DNA of 64,000 nt, taken from assembly GCF_000337535.1 (NCBI RefSeq), contig NZ_AOIP01000012.1:1-64000 (forward strand), written 5' to 3'. The notes beneath the pieces were generated by a model that was given only the letters and a program-made list of their open reading frames with translations, searched no databases and had not been told where the DNA came from. Below, piece after piece: positions 3,779 through 63,551 of the stretch. This stretch comes from Natrialba aegyptia DSM 13077 (GTDB lineage Archaea; Halobacteriota; Halobacteria; Halobacteriales; Natrialbaceae). How positions within the stretch are numbered: the first letter of the stretch is position 1; every line of letters begins with the position of its first letter. The position numbers and the translations under genes are program-made.

Positions 3779-4729
3779 ATGTCGACACCGAACGATTCGA
3801 ACGACGGGACGCCGACTGGCACCGAACCGTCACAGCAGCCGGCGGACGATGCTTCCGTCGGATTGATCGGCCTCATCCGAATCACCATCGCCGTGCTCCG
3901 CGCTCGACCGTCGTTACTCGTCCCCTTCGCGCTCGCCGGCGTGGTCGGAGCGACGAGTGCAGTCGCCAGGATCGAATCGCCGTATCCCGTCGATATGGTG
4001 GCGTTTCCCGCCAACGGCGTCGTCCACCTTTCGGTCGCACTGGTACCGGCACTGGAGCCGATGGTCGAGGTGAACTCGGGTCTCGTTCTCGGGCTGAAAC
4101 CGGCGTTCCTGGCCGTACTCATCGGCTGGCAGGTCGGACTCGCGCTCGCGGTGACGGTGGCGTTTGCGGGGGTCGTTCGGGCGGCGGCTCGTTTAATTTC
4201 GAAAACGCACGCGATCTCATCGCCATCGGCGACATCCGAAGTCGGGGCTGACGAGAGCAAGGGACTCATTCCGAGTCTCGTCCCGTCACCCGTCCGACTC
4301 GGCTGGCTCTTCGCGTACGTGCTCGGGATCCAGATCGTGCTGCTCGCCGGTCTTTTCGTGGTTGGAGCGTTCGGAATCGGACCCGGACCCGGATCGACCG
4401 GACTCGGTCCGCTTTTCGGATGGCTGTTCGTCGTCGTTCCCATCGCGAGCGGACTCTTTCTAACGCCCGCAGCGATCGTGATCGGCGGCAAACGCCCGAT
4501 CGAGGCTGCGATTGAGAGCGCCGCATACGCCGTGAGACGTCCGCTCTCGGTCGTCGCGTTACTCCTCGCTACCGGCTATCTCGGCACCGTCCTGACCGGC
4601 GTCTTTCACGGCGGACCGTCCCCGCGGATCGGCGTCGCACTCGGAACGTTCACGAGCGTCGCCGTCGGCGGGACACTCCACGCAATCGTCGTTGCAGCGG
4701 CGTACGTTTGCTGGTCGGCCGACAGCTAG
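3779..4729 (+). CDS. Multi-pass membrane protein coupled to the PQQ-propeller gene
   Basis: A 316-aa protein with a short polar Ser/Thr-rich N-terminus and about six hydrophobic segments (for example LLVPFALAGVVGATSAVA, LGIQIVLLAGLFVVGAF, LSVVALLLATGYLGTVLTG). It resembles the DUF4013/YIPF-like haloarchaeal membrane proteins in layout only, and I cannot name a family with certainty. Its ATG overlaps the end of the lipoprotein gene, so the pair probably works together at the membrane. The stop overlaps the 3' end of the convergent GNAT gene by 4 bp. Confidence 0.8.
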   Translation: MSTPNDSNDGTPTGTEPSQQPADDASVGLIGLIRITIAVLRARPSLLVPFALAGVVGATSAVARIESPYPVDMVAFPANGVVHLSVALVPALEPMVEVNSGLVLGLKPAFLAVLIGWQVGLALAVTVAFAGVVRAAARLISKTHAISSPSATSEVGADESKGLIPSLVPSPVRLGWLFAYVLGIQIVLLAGLFVVGAFGIGPGPGSTGLGPLFGWLFVVVPIASGLFLTPAAIVIGGKRPIEAAIESAAYAVRRPLSVVALLLATGYLGTVLTGVFHGGPSPRIGVALGTFTSVAVGGTLHAIVVAAAYVCWSADS

Positions 4730-5346
4730 CGCGGCGATTCCGCGTCAGTCTCTCCCGTCGCTTCCGGTGGTGGCTCGCTTCCACACCGGGAGTCGAGAAA
4801 CGAGTGTTCGGCGTCGGAGAGGTCGCGGCTGCGGAACTCGTCGAGACCGGCCTGATACGCGTCTCGAGTTCGGCCAGCGACTTCCGAAGCAGCGGGTTCA
4901 TCGGCCGCAATGTCGGAGGGGGGAGCGGTCTCGCTATCGATCGTCACCGTCGGTGGATACTCGAGTACGAGTTCGGCGATGCCGGTCGTCTCGCCGGTGT
5001 AGCCGAAGCCGGCGCGGTAGAGCGCCTCGTAGGCGAAGGGGTTGTTGACGGCGATGCGGAGGCGGTCGTAGCCGTGCTCTCTCGCGCGGTCGCGGACGAG
5101 GGCGACGAGTTCGGGACCGATCCCCTCGCCGCGGCGGTCGCGGGCGACCGTGACGTATCGCAACCAGAGCGTGTTTTCGTCGGTTCGGTCCTCGTTGAAC
5201 GCGATAGCTCCGACGGTGGTGTCGTCCTCGCGGGCGACAGCCTTCCCCGTATTCGTCATGACGAACTTGCCGGCGTAGCTGAACCGCGTGTGATCGAGGC
5301 GCAGTTTCGGTCCGTCCGGCGGCCACGCGAGCAGTTCGTAGTCCAC
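4726..5346 (-). CDS. GNAT family N-acetyltransferase
   Basis: A 206-aa acetyl-CoA-dependent acyltransferase. Motif A of the GNAT fold is clear: LRYVTVARDRRGEGIGPELVA gives the R/Q-x-x-G-x-G/A acetyl-CoA loop. It is followed by the NNPFAYEALYRAGFGYTGE motif B region. After residue ~140 there is an acidic C-terminal extension of about 65 residues (ETAPPSDIAADEPAASEV) not needed for catalysis. The start is GTG. The acceptor substrate is unknown. It converges on the membrane-protein gene with a 4-bp overlap. Confidence 0.87.
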   Translation of the reverse strand: MDYELLAWPPDGPKLRLDHTRFSYAGKFVMTNTGKAVAREDDTTVGAIAFNEDRTDENTLWLRYVTVARDRRGEGIGPELVALVRDRAREHGYDRLRIAVNNPFAYEALYRAGFGYTGETTGIAELVLEYPPTVTIDSETAPPSDIAADEPAASEVAGRTRDAYQAGLDEFRSRDLSDAEHSFLDSRCGSEPPPEATGETDAESPR

Positions 5347-36897: not shown

Positions 36898-37044
36898 ACG
36901 GACGCCACGCCCCGGGGAACTAATCGTATTGTGGTCTCGGCGAATGCTACGGCTGGAGGACTGCGCGGGTCGAACCGGAGACACAGCAGGCACTCGTCAG
37001 CGCCACCGCCTCCGGATCGATGTGACGGCAGATGAAGTATGAAT

Positions 37045-37348
37045 GTGGAAGCCGCGATTGCCCGGCGTTCCGGCCGGGGGAATCTCGGTTGCCTCCTCCA
37101 CCCCGCGACCCGTCGAGCGACAGGTGTCCGGCGGTCCACTGCTCGCTTCCGCGCCTGATGGGCTGTCGCCGACTAACCACGATGGGACGTCCCTGCGGAC
37201 GGCCACCGTAGACCGCTGTCCCCGACGGACGAGGCTTCCACGTTGGCTCCCGAGGCCCCGGCCGGTCTGACCGGACGCCCGCGGTGTTTGGTCCCCGCTA
37301 AAGGCCATACTGCGGGTAGTGAGCAGGGCCTAACTGCCCGACCTATCC
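37045..37348 (-). ncRNA. SRP RNA (archaeal 7S RNA)
   Basis: The minus strand carries the universally conserved helix 8 signature. Near 37145-37170, CATCAGGCGCGGAAGCGAGC continues with AGTGGACCGCC, giving the GGAA tetraloop closed by CG pairs and flanked by the asymmetric loop TCAGG/GAGCAG, closed by GGCG/CGCC. On either side long complementary arms form helix 5: CGTCCGTCG with CGACGGGTCG, GCCTCGGGAGCC with GGCAACCGAG, and CGCGGGCGTCCGG with CCGGAACGCCGGG. A TATA box (ccttaagtacc, 37368-37378) fixes the 5' end near 37348. About 304 nt matches haloarchaeal SRP RNA. The exact 3' end is approximate. Confidence 0.88.
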
Positions 37349-37367
37349 ATTTGTCTGTATGTGACTG

Positions 37368-53321: not shown

Positions 53322-53607
53322 ATTAGAAGTTGTCTCACGAATCGAGAACATGTAGAATCGTTACTACCATGTGGTGATCACTGCACAGCACTCGGCGCGA
53401 GCCGAGTCCGTGCCGAGAGACGGTCTCCGCCCGGACGGCGATGATCACGACCGGCCGTGGTATCCGTACCAATACCGGCCTCGTCAATACCAGTCTCGCC
53501 GCCACCACCACCATCATTTCCCGCCCGTCGAAACGACGGGACGGGACCGGGTCGAACGCACAGGTCGACACGGAGACGAGCAGAAGCCGCGACACGCGAG
53601 AACAGCG
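53322..53607. other. Intergenic region with a GNRA hairpin, no supported gene
   Basis: A perfect 7-bp hairpin with a GCGA loop (actcggc/gccgagt, 53390-53407) lies about 200 nt past the permease stop. Short open frames on both strands lack conserved or haloarchaeal composition. Confidence 0.4.
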
Positions 53608-55194
53608 TCAGCCTTCGGTCTGCGACTCAGTGCCGCCGATCCAGCGGTCCCAGAACGTGTTGAACTCGGTTTCGTCCTCGGTCAGCCGATCGAGTTCAGC
53701 GAGGCCGCGTTCGGTACGGGTTCCCGGAATCGTGTTGTCGAGGACGAGCGCGGCGAGGCCGCCGATGGCCATGCCGGTCGAGCCGATAATGTAGATCGTA
53801 TCGACGACGGCGATGGCCGCCCCCTCGATGACGGGGACGAGGACGGTGCCGGCGATGGCGTCAGCGCCGAGCAGCGGGTCGATCGCGCCGGCGAGGCCGA
53901 CGGCCTCGCGGAAGGCGAGCGTGCTCTCGAAGTTGCCCATGTACGACGGAATCGCGAGGCCGACGAAGAGGGCGAAGCCGACGATGAAGACGTTGCGCGA
54001 GGAGTCGAGGTCGACGTGTTTGAGGTTCCCGATGCCGACGGCGACGATCTGGGCGAACATGGCGATGAAGAGGCCGCCGATGATGGGGTCGGGAATGGTC
54101 GCGATGAGCTGGCCGAAGTAGCCGATAAAGCCGACGAGCAGCATGATAACCGCCCCGAACTGGACGACGTAGCGCGAGGCGACGCCGGTCAATCCGATCG
54201 CGCCGATGTTCTCGGAGTAAGAGGTCGAGCCGCCGGTGCCCATGATGCCCGAGAAGACGTTCATCAGACCTTCCATACCGATGCCGTGGTTGATTCGCTT
54301 TTCGCTGGGGGCGGCGGCACCGGTCAGGTTCGCGACGGCGTAGTAGTCGCCGATGCTTTCGACGATCGAAGCGAGCACGCCGGCGAACATGCCGACGACG
54401 AACGCGGTCGTGACCTCCGGGGAGCCCCACTGGAACGGCCGGATCGGCAGGATGAGCGACGTATTGGTAACATCGCCCAGCGGGACGAAGCCGGGGTGGC
54501 CGCTGCTGAGGACGCCTGTCGCCGACAGCACCGCGGCGACGATCCAGGAGATGCCGATTGCCAGGATGACCGGATACAGTCTGAACGCCCGGTGTTTGAG
54601 ATCGAGGTACTGCGAGAACAGCAGGATGAGTCCGAGCGTGAGCCCGAGGAGCCACCAACTCTGCTCCGGCGACGTGATCTGGTCGGCATCGAACAGCGCC
54701 AGCCCGATCAGGGCGATGGTGGGCGCGATGGCGACCGGCGAGAGGTACCGCTGGAGTTTCCCGACCAGGCCGAAGTACCCCATCGCGACCTGGACGACCG
54801 CGGCGAGGATGATCGCCCCCTGTAACTGCACCAGTGCGGCCTGCCAGTCCCCGCCCGCGCCGCCGGCGGTGACGACGCCGATAATGGCGAGCGCGGGTGC
54901 GAGCATCGAGAACGGCGCGCCCTGGACGATCGGGTACCGGTTGCCGAACGTCGTCTGGGCGAGCGTCGCGATTCCCGAGACGACGAAGAAGGTCCCGATG
55001 AACTGCGGCCACAGTGGATCCGGCATCCCCATTGCATCCGCCAGAAACAGCGGCACGGCGATGTTCGCGCCGACCATCGTCAGATAGTGCTGGACGCCGA
55101 GCACGGCCGACTCGCCGAACGGCGGCTGGTCGTCGATACCGTACTCGATGTCGTCCGCGCCCGCGTTCCCCCCTGCTGTGTCTTCCCCCGTCAT
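53608..55194 (-). CDS. NCS2-family nucleobase (uracil/xanthine) permease
   Basis: A 528-aa transporter with about 14 helices. NCS2 signatures are GVQHYLTMVGANIAVPLFLADAMG, IVQGAPFSMLAPALAII, YFGLVGKLQRYLSPVAIAPTIALIGLALFDAD, VESIGDYYAVANLTGAAAPSEKRINHGIGMEGLMNVFSGIMGTGGSTSYSENIGAIGLTGVASR and PDPIIGGLFIAMFAQIVAVG. It imports a purine or pyrimidine base with a cation. ATG 55194 is preferred over an upstream start because the extension lacks family similarity. It is monocistronic. Confidence 0.94.
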   Translation of the reverse strand: MTGEDTAGGNAGADDIEYGIDDQPPFGESAVLGVQHYLTMVGANIAVPLFLADAMGMPDPLWPQFIGTFFVVSGIATLAQTTFGNRYPIVQGAPFSMLAPALAIIGVVTAGGAGGDWQAALVQLQGAIILAAVVQVAMGYFGLVGKLQRYLSPVAIAPTIALIGLALFDADQITSPEQSWWLLGLTLGLILLFSQYLDLKHRAFRLYPVILAIGISWIVAAVLSATGVLSSGHPGFVPLGDVTNTSLILPIRPFQWGSPEVTTAFVVGMFAGVLASIVESIGDYYAVANLTGAAAPSEKRINHGIGMEGLMNVFSGIMGTGGSTSYSENIGAIGLTGVASRYVVQFGAVIMLLVGFIGYFGQLIATIPDPIIGGLFIAMFAQIVAVGIGNLKHVDLDSSRNVFIVGFALFVGLAIPSYMGNFESTLAFREAVGLAGAIDPLLGADAIAGTVLVPVIEGAAIAVVDTIYIIGSTGMAIGGLAALVLDNTIPGTRTERGLAELDRLTEDETEFNTFWDRWIGGTESQTEG

Positions 55195-55289
55195 CGTGAA
55201 CTCACCGGATAACGCGCGAGCGCGCTCAAAGACGTGTTGATGTTCGCGCTTCGCCGTACCGATTGTTGTCACTAATCAGATGGATGCAG

Positions 55290-55751: not shown

Positions 55752-57152
55752 ATGAAGGGAATCGTGCTCGGCGGCGTCAGCTCCGGCGTCGGCAAGACGG
55801 TCGCGACGCTGGCGACGATACAGGCGCTCTCGGATGCGGGCCGCGAGGTGCAGCCGGCGAAGGCGGGGCCGGACTTCATCGATCCGAGCCACCACGAGGC
55901 GATCGCGGGTCGCCCCTCGCGAACGCTCGACCTGTGGCTCTGCGGGGCCGACGGACTCGAACGGAACTACGCTCGCGCCGGGACCGCCGACGGCGCACGC
56001 GCCGGCACCGCAGCCGCCACCACCTCGACGGCGCAACCGGACATCTGCGTCGTCGAGGGCGTAATGGGGCTGTACGACGGCGACGCCTCGAGTTCGGCGA
56101 TGGTCGCCGCTGAACTCGATCTGCCGGTCGTTCTCGTCGTCGACGCCAAGGCGGGCATGGAGAGCGTGGCGGCGACCGCGCTCGGCTTTCGAGAGTACGC
56201 CGCGGAAATCGGCCGCGACGTCGACGTGGCGGGAATCATCGCCCAGCGCGCACACGGCGGCCGTCACGAACGAGGGATCCGGGAGGCGCTGCCGGACGAC
56301 CTCGAGTTCTTCGGGCGGATTCCGCCGAACGAGGCCCTCGAAATTCCCGATCGGCACCTCGGGCTCGAGATGGGGTCGGAGTCGGCGCTCCCGCGCGCGG
56401 CGCTCCGGGAGGCCGCCGAGACCCTGGAGACCGACCGGTTGCTCGCGGCCGCCCGCGAACCGTCCGCACCCGATCGCGAGCGCGCTGCTCCGGACCCCGT
56501 CGAGACGACGGTCGCCGTGGCCAGCGATCGGGCGTTTTGCTTTCGGTACCCCGCGACGATCGAACGCCTCCGCGAGCGCGCCGAACTCGTGACGTTCTCG
56601 CCCGTCGCCGGCGATCCCGTGCCGGACTGCGACGGCGTCTACCTCCCCGGCGGCTACCCCGAACTGTACGCTGCCGAACTCGAATCCGCGGGGACGCTCG
56701 CCGAACTCGGGACGCGGGCGAGCGAGGGACTCCCGGTCTTCGGCGAGTGCGGTGGCCTGATGGCGATGAGTCAGTCGCTGACCACGACTGGCGAAGACGA
56801 TGCCGAGCGAGAATCCGGGACCGGGACGACCCACGAAATGGCCGGCATCCTACCCGCGGACGTCACCATGCACGATCGCTACCAGTCGCTCGATCACGTC
56901 GAACTCGCGGCCGTCGACGACACGCTGACCGCCCGCGCTGGCGAGACGATCCGGGGCCACGAGTTCCACTACTCGAGCGCGACCGTCGATTCGGACGCGC
57001 GCTTCGCCTTCGAAACGGTCCGCGGGTCGGGGATCGACGGCGACCACGACGGGTTGATGGCGTACCACTCGCTCGGCACCTACGCACACGTCCATCCCGA
57101 GAGCGGCGCGTTCGATCGGTTCCTCGAGTTCGTCTCCGGCACCCGCGAGTAG
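55752..57152 (+). CDS. cbiA: Cobyrinic acid a,c-diamide synthase
   Basis: A 466-aa two-domain enzyme that amidates side chains a and c of cobyrinate with glutamine and ATP. The ATP-binding dethiobiotin-synthetase-like domain begins MKGIVLGGVSSGVGKTVATL and includes QPAKAGPDFIDPSHHEAIAG and VVEGVMGLYDGDASSSA. The C-terminal class I glutamine amidotransferase has the nucleophile Cys in VFGECGGLMAMS and the catalytic His in SLGTYAHVHPES. Start ATG 55752 sits at the P-loop as in the family. It joins CbiX as a second cobalamin gene in this window but is not operonic with it. Confidence 0.93.
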   Translation: MKGIVLGGVSSGVGKTVATLATIQALSDAGREVQPAKAGPDFIDPSHHEAIAGRPSRTLDLWLCGADGLERNYARAGTADGARAGTAAATTSTAQPDICVVEGVMGLYDGDASSSAMVAAELDLPVVLVVDAKAGMESVAATALGFREYAAEIGRDVDVAGIIAQRAHGGRHERGIREALPDDLEFFGRIPPNEALEIPDRHLGLEMGSESALPRAALREAAETLETDRLLAAAREPSAPDRERAAPDPVETTVAVASDRAFCFRYPATIERLRERAELVTFSPVAGDPVPDCDGVYLPGGYPELYAAELESAGTLAELGTRASEGLPVFGECGGLMAMSQSLTTTGEDDAERESGTGTTHEMAGILPADVTMHDRYQSLDHVELAAVDDTLTARAGETIRGHEFHYSSATVDSDARFAFETVRGSGIDGDHDGLMAYHSLGTYAHVHPESGAFDRFLEFVSGTRE

Positions 57153-57346: not shown

Positions 57347-58444
57347 ATGATAGATGGGACAGACAGCGGCGACGCCAGTAAACAGGTCGGCCGCAGCGAT
57401 GAGGCGCGCGTGCGGGAGAGAGTTGGAGACGGAGGCGAAAACGGAAACGGAAACGGAGATGGGATCGAGACGACGAATACCGGACGATGGCTCGTCACCG
57501 ATGGCGGCGAAGAGAGCAGCGAGACCGACGAGGGAGAGGACGAGAACAGCACCGCCGACGAGAGCGAGGCGGACGACGAGGATCAGGAGCAACCGAACGA
57601 GGCCGAAGACGGGGACGAGGAGGCCGGTGAAGAATCCGAGGCTGGCGGTGACGGTTCGGAGAGCGATGAGAGCGACGAAAGCGAAGGTAAAGGTGAGGAC
57701 GAGGAGCCGACCAGCGCCCACGTCGAGGACGCCGAAGACGTCTACGAGGGTGACGAGGCGAACGGCGTCCTCCACCTGGATCTCGACGGCCTGTTTCTCG
57801 ATTTGCTCGGGCTCGAGGTCAACCTGAACCCGGTCACGCTCGACGTGTCGGCCCGGCCGGGCGAGAACAACTTACTCGGCAATCTGCTTTCGAGCGTGAC
57901 CGGGCTGCTAGACGGTCCAGCGGCGCTGTTGGACAAGGTCACGTCGCTGGTCGAAAAGCCGGTGAACATGTTGCAGTCGGCGCTTGGAAAGCCGATAACC
58001 TGGCTGAAATCTGCTCCGGGTACCGCGCTCGACTGGCTCAAATCGCTCCCTGGGGCGCTGCTGGGAAAGGTGAAGACGTTGCTCGGCCGGCCTCAAGGCG
58101 GCGAGCAGGAACCCGAGGGCGACGAAGCGGAAGCCGAAGCCGAGGGTGAAGACGAGGACGCCGAGGCCGAAGACGGTACCAATGACTCCGACGCGGAAGA
58201 CGGCGAAAGCGACGATACCGAGTCGGATACCGGGCCGCTCGCCCCGATCACGAGTTCGCTTTCGTCGGCGGGAGACACGGCGAAACAGAAGGCGGTCGGG
58301 TTGCTTCCCGGGTTGCCGGTCGAGGAACTCATCGCGACGGTCGTTCGCGAGGTCATCAAGCAACTGGTCGAACAGGCGGAGACGGCTAGTGAGGAATCGA
58401 GCGGACAGGAGTCTTCGAACGCCGACGCACAGCCGGAGGCCTAA
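57347..58444 (+). CDS. Very acidic protein with conserved amphipathic centre, cluster gene 1
   Basis: A 365-aa protein. Residues ~1-135 are a Glu/Asp/Ser-rich, likely disordered arm (GENGNGNGDGIETTNTGRWL, then ESDESDESEGKGEDEEPTSA). A conserved-looking core (~140-250) reads GVLHLDLDGLFLDLLGLEVN, then LNPVTLDVSARPGENNLLGN, then LLSSVTGLLDG, with repeated amphipathic PITWLKSAPGTALDWLKSLPGALLGKV helices. A second acidic arm and a helical end (PVEELIATVVREVIKQLVEQAETA) follow. No enzyme motif and no signal peptide. The next ATG starts 2 nt after the stop. Function is unknown; possibly membrane-surface or self-assembling. Confidence 0.72.
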   Translation: MIDGTDSGDASKQVGRSDEARVRERVGDGGENGNGNGDGIETTNTGRWLVTDGGEESSETDEGEDENSTADESEADDEDQEQPNEAEDGDEEAGEESEAGGDGSESDESDESEGKGEDEEPTSAHVEDAEDVYEGDEANGVLHLDLDGLFLDLLGLEVNLNPVTLDVSARPGENNLLGNLLSSVTGLLDGPAALLDKVTSLVEKPVNMLQSALGKPITWLKSAPGTALDWLKSLPGALLGKVKTLLGRPQGGEQEPEGDEAEAEAEGEDEDAEAEDGTNDSDAEDGESDDTESDTGPLAPITSSLSSAGDTAKQKAVGLLPGLPVEELIATVVREVIKQLVEQAETASEESSGQESSNADAQPEA

Positions 58445-58446
58445 GT

Positions 58447-59049
58447 ATGAGTACTGAGACGGATTCAGAGTCAGATTCGGAGTCGGATTCGGACACAAAC
58501 ATGGACACGGACGCGAACGCGAACTCGAACTCGAACTCGGTAATGGAACGAATCGACTACGAGAAGATCGCCGAAAACATCGATCTTCATGAACTACTCG
58601 AGGGAACGCAGTGGGAGGACGAGATCGACGACGACAAACCGTTGGGAGAGGCGCTTGGCGCGTTACTTGGGGCGATTATCGGACGCAAGCTCGGTGCGAG
58701 TCTCGGGCGGACGATCGGTGAACTCTCACTCGAGGAAATTCTGAGCCGAAGCGAAGACGAGGAAGCGGACGAAGACGAAGGCGGTTCGGAGACGGACGAG
58801 GCGGAAGAGCAAGCAGTCGAAGGCGAGTCCGACACTGCGGATGCTGAAGACACCGATGACGCCGAGGAGAGTGACGGAAATGCAGAGAGCGGAGACGACG
58901 AGGAAACCGATGACGAGGAGACTGATGGAGATAACGGCGATTCGGACAACGACGAAAACGGAGACGGGGACACCGACACAAACGACTCGGACGAGACCAG
59001 TGACACCGAGAGTGACGACGGCGAAGACACCGACACAGAGGATGACTAA
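58447..59049 (+). CDS. Acidic glycine-zipper protein, cluster gene 2
   Basis: A 200-aa protein. A Ser/Asp repeat start (DSESDSESDSDTN, NANSNSNSV) precedes MERIDYEKIAENIDLHELLEGTQW. A glycine-zipper helix pair follows: GEALGALLGAIIGRKLGASLGRTIGEL (residues ~67-95). The rest (~105 residues) is nearly all Asp/Glu/Ser/Thr. Glycine zippers pack helices tightly and are common in pores and membrane-associated assemblies. An almost identical LGRTIG-type zipper recurs in the next gene. An internal ATG (MERIDYEK) is an alternative start. Confidence 0.68.
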   Translation: MSTETDSESDSESDSDTNMDTDANANSNSNSVMERIDYEKIAENIDLHELLEGTQWEDEIDDDKPLGEALGALLGAIIGRKLGASLGRTIGELSLEEILSRSEDEEADEDEGGSETDEAEEQAVEGESDTADAEDTDDAEESDGNAESGDDEETDDEETDGDNGDSDNDENGDGDTDTNDSDETSDTESDDGEDTDTEDD

Positions 59050-59142
59050 CCGCTCCCACCAGTCCCATCTCGATCCCTGCTCTCAGCCCCTGCAGCATCG
59101 ACACAACTACCGTCGACGCCGCCAGCGGCCCTGCCCCACGAA

Positions 59143-59151
59143 TCGAGGTGA
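59143..59151 (+). promoter_or_regulatory. Shine-Dalgarno-like site deciding the GTG start at 59157
   Basis: tcgaggtga lies 5 nt before GTG 59157 and matches the 16S 3' end complement; no ATG is available nearby. Confidence 0.5.
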
Positions 59152-59156
59152 GATCC

Positions 59157-60002
59157 GTGAGTGAGGACACCGGACTGCAGGAACTCGTCGCCGAGGAAGT
59201 CACCGACCAACTCGATGTCGCCGACCTCATCGACGGCGGCTCCATCGAGGACGGAATCGACGCCGGCGAAATCGGTGCCTCCGTCGGCCGCCAGTTCGGC
59301 GAGCGACTCGGACGAACCATCGGTGCCTCCGTCGGTGGCGAAATCCACGACACGCTTTCGAGTGCGTTCGAATCGGGGACGGATGCGGCCGACGGCGAAG
59401 GTGAAGAGGAAGAGGAAAACGGAGATGGGAACGGAGGCACAAAACCGACAGCCGACACCCTCACACTCAAACAACTCCTCGCTGAACTCGTCACGGCGAT
59501 TCGGACCGGATTCGTGACGGCGCTCGACGATAGCAACGCGCGCGACTCGGTCGAGTCCATCGCCCAGAACGTCACCGAGGGAACCAGTCTCGAGGGCGTT
59601 TTCGAGACGAGTTCAGAAACGGAGACGCAGGAGGAGGGGGCGGACGGTGAGGATGAGAGCGGTGCCGAGGCGGCTGAGACTGCTGATGCGGATGACCGAG
59701 ATGCCGATACCGAACTCGAGCAGGCACCGGAGGATCTAGAGAACCTTCGGCGGGAGACGTTGGTGGATTTCCTGGGCGTGATGTCGTATCAGGATCTCCA
59801 GTCCGTTGCCAAGGAAGTCGGCGTCAAGGCGAACCTCAGCCGCGAGGAGATGACGGACGAGATTATCGAGACGGTGGCTGCCGAGGAGGGCGACGGGGCG
59901 AATGGAGACGCGGATGAACGTGACTCTGGCGGTGGTGGGGAAGATGGTGGCGGTGGAGACGGTGGCGACGACACCGACGGGGAGAGTAGCGACTCCGAGT
60001 GA
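59157..60002 (+). CDS. Acidic glycine-zipper protein with SAP/Rho-N-like helix module, cluster gene 3
   Basis: A 281-aa protein starting at GTG after a GAGGTGA site. The N-terminus (LQELVAEEVTDQLDVADLID) leads to a glycine zipper GEIGASVGRQFGERLGRTIGASVGGEI (~40-66). A second helical block is LKQLLAELVTAIRTGFVTALDDS. Acidic linkers separate this from a C-terminal LRRETLVDFLGVMSYQDLQSVAKEVGVKANLSREEMTDEIIETV module (~200-245). Its two helices and turn resemble SAP or Rho-N domains, which bind nucleic acid. The end is Gly/Asp-rich. The function of the combination is unknown. Confidence 0.7.
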   Translation: MSEDTGLQELVAEEVTDQLDVADLIDGGSIEDGIDAGEIGASVGRQFGERLGRTIGASVGGEIHDTLSSAFESGTDAADGEGEEEEENGDGNGGTKPTADTLTLKQLLAELVTAIRTGFVTALDDSNARDSVESIAQNVTEGTSLEGVFETSSETETQEEGADGEDESGAEAAETADADDRDADTELEQAPEDLENLRRETLVDFLGVMSYQDLQSVAKEVGVKANLSREEMTDEIIETVAAEEGDGANGDADERDSGGGGEDGGGGDGGDDTDGESSDSE

Positions 60003-60150
60003 GTAATCGAGGCGGAAGAACGGCGGCGATGCCGGAGTCGCCGAGGTGCGTGCGTGGACGCCGGAGCGAAATCCAACCCCAACCCGGAACTGGCCGGGAA
60101 ACGTTCACGACGCTCGCACCCCAGTACCCCACACAGACCGGGTGAGAATC

Positions 60151-60981
60151 ATGAGTGACGACGACCTCCGGACGCGGGTGACCGAGATACTCGAGACGGC
60201 CGATGCCCAGGCGGGGTCGCTGGTCGACGGCGACGATTCCCCGAGTGAGTCGACGGTGACGGCGGCTGCGGCCGATGCCGGCGACCTGCTCGCGTCGACC
60301 GACCCGCGGGAGCTACTCGAGGCGATCGGTCTGGGGACACTGCCGGACGGAACAGAGCCGGAGACGCTTCCGGAGGCGATCACGCGCGGCGACCCGGCGC
60401 ACGTCGAGGATCTCGAGCGCCTGTTGCGGCTCGCACGGCTCGACGAGCGTTCGGATGAGGAGACGCTGGACGACGCGGTCGGTGAACTGCAGGCGGCGAT
60501 TCATGCAGACGGCGACACCGACGGCGATGGCGACCGGAGTGACGACACATCCGAGAGCGACGCTGCAGCCGCTGCAGCTGACGACACGGAGGCGGATGAC
60601 GACGCTGACACCGAGACCGACAGCGACGCACTCGAGTTCATCGAGGACGAACTCGGGTCGGCGGTGGGCGAGCGATTGACGTCGTTTAGCGAGGATATCG
60701 AGGGATTACAGGAGCGACTCGCCGCGGCTGGCGTCGATGTCGGTGTGGGAGACGATGATAGGGAGGACGGGGGCGACGAGAGCGACGGCGACGGGACTGC
60801 TGATGACGATACCGATGACGGCCTTCTCGATCCGGATCTCAGTACGGATCTCGGTTCCGATTCGGCCGGCGAACGGACCTCGCGCGGCGTCGCGCGATAC
60901 TCCACGGTCGCACCGTCACCGGGAGACCGCGCGGACATGAAGACACCGGCCCGGTTCTCGACGATGCCGAAACGGGACTGA
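60151..60981 (+). CDS. Acidic protein of unknown function, cluster gene 4
   Basis: A 276-aa protein preceded by ggtga 5 nt before the ATG. Helical N-terminus: MSDDDLRTRVTEILETADAQ, DAGDLLASTDPRELLEAIGLG and DPAHVEDLERLLRLARLDERSDEETLDDAVGELQAAI. An acidic linker follows, then a helix (EFIEDELGSAVGERLTSFSEDIEGLQERLAAAG) with a GSAVGERL segment that recalls the zipper motif of genes 2 and 3. The basic C-terminus (GERTSRGVARYSTVAPSPGDRADMKTPARF) is a striking charge reversal and may bind a partner or nucleic acid. Confidence 0.68.
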   Translation: MSDDDLRTRVTEILETADAQAGSLVDGDDSPSESTVTAAAADAGDLLASTDPRELLEAIGLGTLPDGTEPETLPEAITRGDPAHVEDLERLLRLARLDERSDEETLDDAVGELQAAIHADGDTDGDGDRSDDTSESDAAAAAADDTEADDDADTETDSDALEFIEDELGSAVGERLTSFSEDIEGLQERLAAAGVDVGVGDDDREDGGDESDGDGTADDDTDDGLLDPDLSTDLGSDSAGERTSRGVARYSTVAPSPGDRADMKTPARFSTMPKRD

Positions 60982-61049: not shown

Positions 61050-61499
61050 ATGTACGACTCACTTCTCGTCGCGACGGACGGCAGCGACGCCGCAACGACT
61101 GCCACCCATCACGCCGTCTCCCTTGCGACCGAACTGGATGCGGCCGTGTACGGTCTCGCCGTGCTCGAATCGCGCACCGAGTACGACAACGCCATCGTCG
61201 ACCCCGACGAACGCGAGCGCAAACGGCGCGCGGCGGCCGAATCCGCGCTCGCTGAACTCGCGGACGAAGCGACTGCAGCGGGCGTGCCGGTCGAGACGGA
61301 GATTCGCTCGGGCGTGCCACACGAGGAGATTCTCGCGGTCGCAACGGAGCACGACGTGGGCGCGGTCGTCATCGGCGCTCGCGGGAGTTCGAAACTCAAG
61401 CGGGCGCTGCTCGGGAGTACCGTGGATGCCGTCGTTCGCTTTGCGGATCGCCCGGTGCTCGTCGTCGAGGACGATGCCGAACCGGTTCGGTCGAACTAG
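61050..61499 (+). CDS. Universal stress protein (UspA family)
   Basis: A 149-aa UspA domain starting MYDSLLVATDGSDAATTATHHAVSLA. The ATP-binding motif G-x2-G-x9-G-S/T is complete (GARGSSKLKRALLGST), so it is probably an ATP-binding, dimeric UspA. The ending VVRFADRPVLVVED is typical. It sits 68 bp after the acidic cluster and upstream of acs on the same strand; UspA genes often flank transport or energy genes in haloarchaea. Confidence 0.93.
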   Translation: MYDSLLVATDGSDAATTATHHAVSLATELDAAVYGLAVLESRTEYDNAIVDPDERERKRRAAAESALAELADEATAAGVPVETEIRSGVPHEEILAVATEHDVGAVVIGARGSSKLKRALLGSTVDAVVRFADRPVLVVEDDAEPVRSN

Positions 61500-61530
61500 T
61501 CGCGTCGCCGTCTGCCTTTCCGGCGGAGGA

Positions 61531-61541
61531 ACGTTTATTCC
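61531..61541 (+). promoter_or_regulatory. TATA box of acs
   Basis: acgtttattcc lies 28-38 bp before ATG 61569, so acs has its own leaderless promoter. Confidence 0.55.
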
Positions 61542-61568
61542 GTTGACCGACTTCGGTCCGAACGACAT

Positions 61569-63551
<1,983 letters not shown>

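Follow-up and report, generated by a model that had tools for sequence, protein, structure and literature searches.

A four-gene operon of highly acidic proteins in Natrialba aegyptia that very probably encodes accessory proteins of a gvpC-less gas vesicle system

The locus described here lies in the first 64,000 nucleotides (nt) of contig NZ_AOIP01000012.1 of Natrialba aegyptia DSM 13077 (NCBI RefSeq assembly GCF_000337535.1); this whole stretch is referred to as the window. Four consecutive genes on the forward strand, at positions 57347-60981, are very probably one operon for gas-vesicle accessory proteins, unlinked to the main gvp cluster and belonging with the gvpC-less type of cluster. 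This reading was drawn from sequence comparisons and builds on the observed gene order, co-occurrence with gvp genes, gvp linkage in other families, the kinship of gene 4 with the GvpI-like protein, joint decay, and exclusion of GvpC. Gene 1 (57347..58444, +) encodes 365 amino acids (aa), gene 2 (58447..59049, +) encodes 200 aa, gene 3 (59157..60002, +) encodes 281 aa when counted from the start common to its homologues (an alternative in-frame GTG is located at 59148), and gene 4 (60151..60981, +) encodes 276 aa. The intergenic gaps are 2, 107, and 148 nt. The original prediction, made from the letters of this stretch, had described four consecutive, very acidic genes on one strand, and its coordinates, strand, and gaps were all correct. 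Asp plus Glu account for 27.1%, 40.5%, 28.5%, and 29.7% of genes 1 to 4, respectively, with a window median of 18.6%, and the four rank 1st, 2nd, 3rd, and 5th among the 56 called window genes. The 4th-ranked entry is a spurious antisense open reading frame (ORF) of a permease, so that no other real gene in the window is as acidic as these four. A spurious large ORF of acidic appearance at 53410-54825 (+) is the antisense of the permease gene at 53608-55272 (-). None of genes 1 to 4 had a family match in Pfam or NCBIfam.

Gene 1 is composed of an acidic N-terminal linker, a conserved core, amphipathic helices, a second acidic linker, and a C-terminal helix (LPVEELIATVVREVIKQL). The core (57758..57916, +; aa ~138-190, VLHLDLDGLFLDLLGLEVNLNPVTLDVSARPG-NNLLGNLLSSVTGLLD) is the diagnostic segment of the locus. 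The LLG core singled out by the original prediction proved to be the most conserved piece of the set, with a ratio of nonsynonymous to synonymous substitution rates (dN/dS) of about 0.05 among Natrialba species. Gene 1 is a new family without a library match, and GNLLGNLL-like motifs presumably occur in bacterial proteins as well. A divergent GvpA-type hairpin was ruled out for the core, as hhalign gave no match to GvpA, GvpJ, or GvpM. Homologues of gene 1 with 620-770 aa are located close to gvp genes at three loci (L060, L077, and L078). The L060 protein has long repeat-like regions of Ig/carboxypeptidase-type resemblance N-terminal to the core, which suggests that the core may be a portable module.

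Gene 2 starts with an N-terminal domain and a glycine zipper (LGEALGALLGAIIGRKLGASLGRTIGE; 58642..58725, +), which has Gly at each fourth residue, and continues as an acidic disordered tail. In gene 3, an N-terminal domain of the gene 2 type with its zipper (59274..59339, +; Gly40-44-48-52-56-60) is followed by an acidic linker and a C-terminal Rho-N/SAP-like module. The zippers are real, as had been proposed: both proteins carry GxxxG, and among 38 homologues of gene 3 the residues Gly48, Gly52, and Gly56 are invariant and Gly40, Gly44, and Gly60 are at least 90% conserved. The zipper is also common to the two genes, whose N-terminal domains are homologous over ~70 aa (hhalign E about 1e-22; score 155 versus at most 21 in a shuffled-column control). 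A long zipper helix was predicted at residues 36-78 of gene 3. When compared with the Pfam glycine-zipper families, gene 2 scored 11-14.5 bits, under the cut-offs of 24-29. Purifying selection acts on the zipper, core, and tail segments of the set. Among Natrialba, dN/dS was 0.06-0.13 for the gene 2 zipper domain, 0.13-0.19 for the gene 3 zipper domain, and up to 0.11 for the gene 3 C-terminal module, while most linkers of the set are looser.

Self-assembly of the gene 2 and gene 3 proteins through their zippers is plausible. The membrane association that had also been suggested was not supported: no feature in its favour was found, and the zipper helices contain Arg and Glu (IGASVGRQFGERLGRTIGASVGGEI) and do not resemble membrane spans. 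The GvpA shell is a likelier candidate for the surface involved than a membrane. Descent of genes 2 and 3 from GvpC or other Gvp proteins was ruled out, as there was no profile match. At three loci (L062, L068, and L073), a gene 2 homologue is fused to the Rho-N/SAP-like end of gene 3 and is located beside gvpO-A, an arrangement that is a compact two-gene form of the operon.

The C-terminal module of gene 3 (59739..59894, +; aa 195-246) was predicted as a putative helix-extended-helix structure similar to the Rho N-domain and DEK SAP, with a predicted local distance difference test score (pLDDT) of about 93; confident helices of the predicted three-helix module span residues 191-208, 211-221, and 229-246. 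Its structural neighbours include the Rho N-domain (Z 5.5-5.9) and DEK SAP (Z 4.5-4.9), at modest scores and with Foldseek E>1. The predicted shape of residues 201-246 agrees with Rho at a root-mean-square deviation of 1.8-2.4 Å, whereas the sequence match is under the family cut-offs; the Rho_N profile had a weak match in 4 of the 38 gene 3 family members (best E=0.0075) and none in the window protein. The SAP/Rho-N-like C-terminus of the original prediction is thus supported weakly, though consistently. Folds of this kind frequently bind nucleic acid. The four proteins may accordingly be pictured as positioning or inheritance factors, in which zipper oligomers and the Rho-N/SAP-like head tether or cluster vesicles, at the nucleoid or with each other, and take no part in shell building. 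Zippers combined with acidic tails would suit clustering. This explanation is rather unlikely, given the weak structural match (Z 4.5-6), the lack of such a module in the gene 1 family, and the co-encoded GvpI paralogue, which indicates assembly.

Gene 4 has an N-terminal helical domain and the basic tail that had been noted earlier (60871..60978, +; GVARYSTVAPSPGDRADMKTPARFSTMPKRD), which contains two STVAP/STMP motifs, is homologous to the GvpI tail, and has a dN/dS of 0.09-0.15 among Natrialba. In profile comparisons, gene 4 matched the long, acidic GvpI-like protein encoded in the main gvp cluster with E=2.1e-20 over 245 columns, and the N-terminal parts alone (E=2.6e-11) and the tails alone (E=9.6e-10) matched as well. 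The gene 4 tail matched the canonical GvpI tail with E=5.7e-6, and the long GvpI-like protein in turn matched canonical GvpI with E=1e-15. These E-values are from single comparisons, with shuffled columns as the control; for gene 4 and the GvpI-like protein the shuffled score was at most 21 versus a real score of 146. Thirteen other gvp families were compared as well, and gene 4 matched none of them. These profiles identify gene 4 and the long GvpI-like protein as paralogues. The claim that no known family explains the set was therefore not supported, since gene 4 is a GvpI-type paralogue and the occurrence of the set follows that of gas vesicle genes.

The ST(M/V)P basic tail is common to gene 4, GvpI of Halobacterium and Haloferax, and the long ‘distant GvpI’ Nmag_0338 of Natrialba magadii, which has an N-terminal extension of >200 residues (PMC3403918); the helical N-domain is shared with the long form. 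Gene 4 differs from GvpI in being acidic overall, in that it and its orthologues are missing the terminal (I/L)YGxR(F/L) box, and in its position, which is within a separate operon and not in the interval from gvpH to gvpJ. In the window genome (G000), the slot between gvpH and gvpJ is occupied by the long GvpI-like gene.

Of 242 Halobacteria genomes, 78 contain the gene 1 core, and these represent 31 of 73 genera. A total of 63 gene 1 neighbourhoods were examined, some genomes being included twice, using a composition-based gene caller whose calls outside the window are heuristic. The order gene 1-gene 2-gene 3-gene 4 recurs amid unrelated flanks, and the four genes are adjacent and on the same strand in 45 of the 46 loci where all four were called. 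An overlap of 4 nt between genes 1 and 2 is usual among the loci and typical of translational coupling. The proposal that the genes form a functional set was borne out: the operon is kept, the cores are conserved, and the linkers evolve fast. Homologues were not scattered singly among unrelated neighbours, nor was the zipper lost as the linkers vary. In the window, the operon is flanked upstream by cobB (cobyrinate diamide synthase; 55752-57152) and downstream by genes for a universal stress protein and an acetyl-CoA synthetase (61050-63551). This flanking synteny is limited to some Natrialbaceae; cobalamin genes adjoin the operon in many members of the family, and other genes do so elsewhere. 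Outside Halobacteria, no occurrence was found in a phylum sample, with bacteria being outside the search. A phage or virus origin was rejected, as no relative was present among viral contigs, and no match was found in a plasmid collection, where the low-complexity filter may mask the gene 1 core.

PF00741 (gvpA/J/M) was found in 97 of the 242 genomes, and these contain all 78 genomes with gene 1; the remaining 145 have neither. The association is strong with kinship ignored (Fisher 1.1e-45), and the same test within Natrialbaceae (52/0/3/6) gave p=1.5e-6. An intact set was found in no gvp-negative genome (0 of 242). Comparison genes from the window do not nest with gvp as gene 1 does. A permease was present in 171 of the 242 genomes, missing in several gvp-positive and present in many gvp-negative ones, and the gene at 4729-5346 could not serve as a co-occurrence control, being present in all 242. 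Physical linkage was also observed: in 14 of the 78 genomes, no more than about 5 kb separates the gene 1 homologue from gvp genes (two match tables combined). Three loci (L052, L066, and L070) have the arrangement gvpF-G-H-[gene 1]-[zipper gene]-[GvpI-like]-gvpJ-K-L-M, and at a fourth (L069) the complete four-gene set adjoins gvpO-A/F-G-H. Joint decay was seen in two genomes. G193 has kept its gvp cluster and lost the AAA core of gvpN, and its distant operon has lost the gene 1 core and the gene 4 frame. In G092, gvp genes are absent, and what is left at the matching syntenic site is limited to pieces of genes 1 and 3.

It is highly improbable that the association reflects shared ancestry only, with the operon having an unrelated function and being restricted to lineages that happen to be gvp-positive. 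Such an account could appeal to the positives being mostly Natrialbaceae and to a test that ignores phylogeny, and it conflicts with the shared descent of gene 4 and a gas vesicle protein, the gvp linkage in several other families, and the co-loss and joint decay within genera. A role in nucleation or assembly, in which the four proteins, together with GvpF-M, serve as an early chaperone or scaffold and are absent from the finished shell, is possible but doubtful. It would agree with the homologues placed within the gvpF-M accessory operon between H and J in some families, and with GvpI of Halobacterium, which is an accessory protein that forms a heterodimer with GvpH and binds GvpL and GvpC (PMC9501494). 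The operon is nevertheless unlinked in most genomes and would thus be separately controlled.

The main gvp cluster of the window genome is located on another contig (L102, G000:C30) and has the organization gvpO-N-A / gvpF-G-H-(long I)-J-K-L-M. Of these, Pfam confirmed O, A, F, G, J, K, L, and M; the gvpN product belongs to the AAA ATPases. Thus, of the canonical gvpACNO and gvpDEFGHIJKLM genes, A, F, G, H, J, K, L, M, N, and O are in use, whereas C, D, and E are missing and the unlinked genes 1 to 4 are added. GvpA is directly followed by gvpN with no gvpC between them, and no Halo_GVPC repeats (PF05465) were found in the window genome. A 74-aa ORF without a family match (L102:11989-12213) is located between the long GvpI-like gene and gvpJ and is probably the counterpart of the extra gene Nmag_0337 (PMC3403918). 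Among the 97 gvp-positive genomes, GvpC (PF05465) was present in 11, none of them with gene 1 (p=7.6e-10, kinship ignored); this count excludes single weak matches, one of which is in a gene 1 genome (G236). The canonical gvpC-bearing clusters that were read have a short GvpI, and the clusters of gene 1 genomes have a long GvpI.

This complete exclusion raises the tentative possibility that the operon specifically replaces GvpC, the outer stiffening protein, as a coat on the outer shell, with gene 1 binding the GvpA ribs and genes 2 and 3 cross-linking it. Like GvpC, the four proteins are acidic, have amphipathic helices, and occur only alongside gvp genes, and their role is presumed to be equal. 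Unlike GvpC, they are four proteins rather than one and have no GvpC repeats; hhalign of the gene 1 core and genes 2 to 4 against GvpC gave no match. Some gvpC-less clusters also exist without the operon, and, because the long GvpI also goes with the absence of gvpC, the exclusion may only mark two cluster lineages.

Several observations weigh against an operon for gas-vesicle accessory proteins. The co-occurrence and GvpC exclusion figures ignore phylogeny, and the exclusion could mark two inherited cluster types instead of functional replacement. Eight gvp-positive genomes (G070, G125, G157, G179, G185, G193, G234, and G239) lack gene 1 as well as GvpC, which means that the set cannot be an absolute requirement; among these, G193 is decayed, G157 retains a gene 2-like ORF, and the gvp locus of G185 was left out of inspection. 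The gene 1 core predicted alone had a low-confidence pLDDT of about 51-65, which would fit folding on a partner. Natrialba magadii, Natrinema pellirubrum, Halopiger, Haladaptatus, and Natronobacterium are without gvpC, D, and E and were reported as gas-vesicle-negative (PMC4390858), so that the system may be silent or serve another function.

With the gas-vesicle assignment retained, the operon proteins are probably an adaptor, scaffold, or coat, which would act in place of GvpC. Gene 4 would be a second GvpI-type adaptor, docking onto the accessory complex through its STMP tail and helical domain. Genes 2 and 3 may assemble into helical oligomers by way of the glycine zipper and keep their long acidic tails spaced, and the Rho-N/SAP-like head of gene 3 could provide an additional contact with nucleic acid or protein. 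The hydrophobic core and amphipathic helices of gene 1 would bind the growing or finished GvpA shell. Together, the four proteins may make up a scaffold or coat by which the shape and strength of the vesicle are controlled, the function of GvpC in Halobacterium.

Elsewhere in the window, an archaeal signal recognition particle RNA (Rfam RF01857) is located at 37042-37353 (-).

In the literature searched, the gvpC-less main cluster and the extended GvpI are known, the four-gene operon is unmentioned, and no paper was found that ties gas vesicles to a glycine zipper or SAP domain. The gas vesicle system would include at least three protein families (genes 1 to 3) and a second GvpI-type protein that are mostly encoded elsewhere than the main cluster; they would have been missed because gas vesicle parts lists were taken from single gene clusters. 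The finding bears on the puzzle that many haloarchaea retain gvpC-less gvp clusters yet are called gas-vesicle-negative. It offers a possible reason for failed or abnormal vesicles when the main cluster alone is moved to another host, and it may supply new parts for engineered gas vesicles. An improbable further reading is that the gvpC-less gvp genes of Natrialbaceae and relatives, with the operon and the extended GvpI, do not produce ordinary buoyant vesicles but another kind of compartment based on GvpA, or a vesicle that is conditional and positioned and has a coat of its own. Either would represent a second architecture for GvpA shells.

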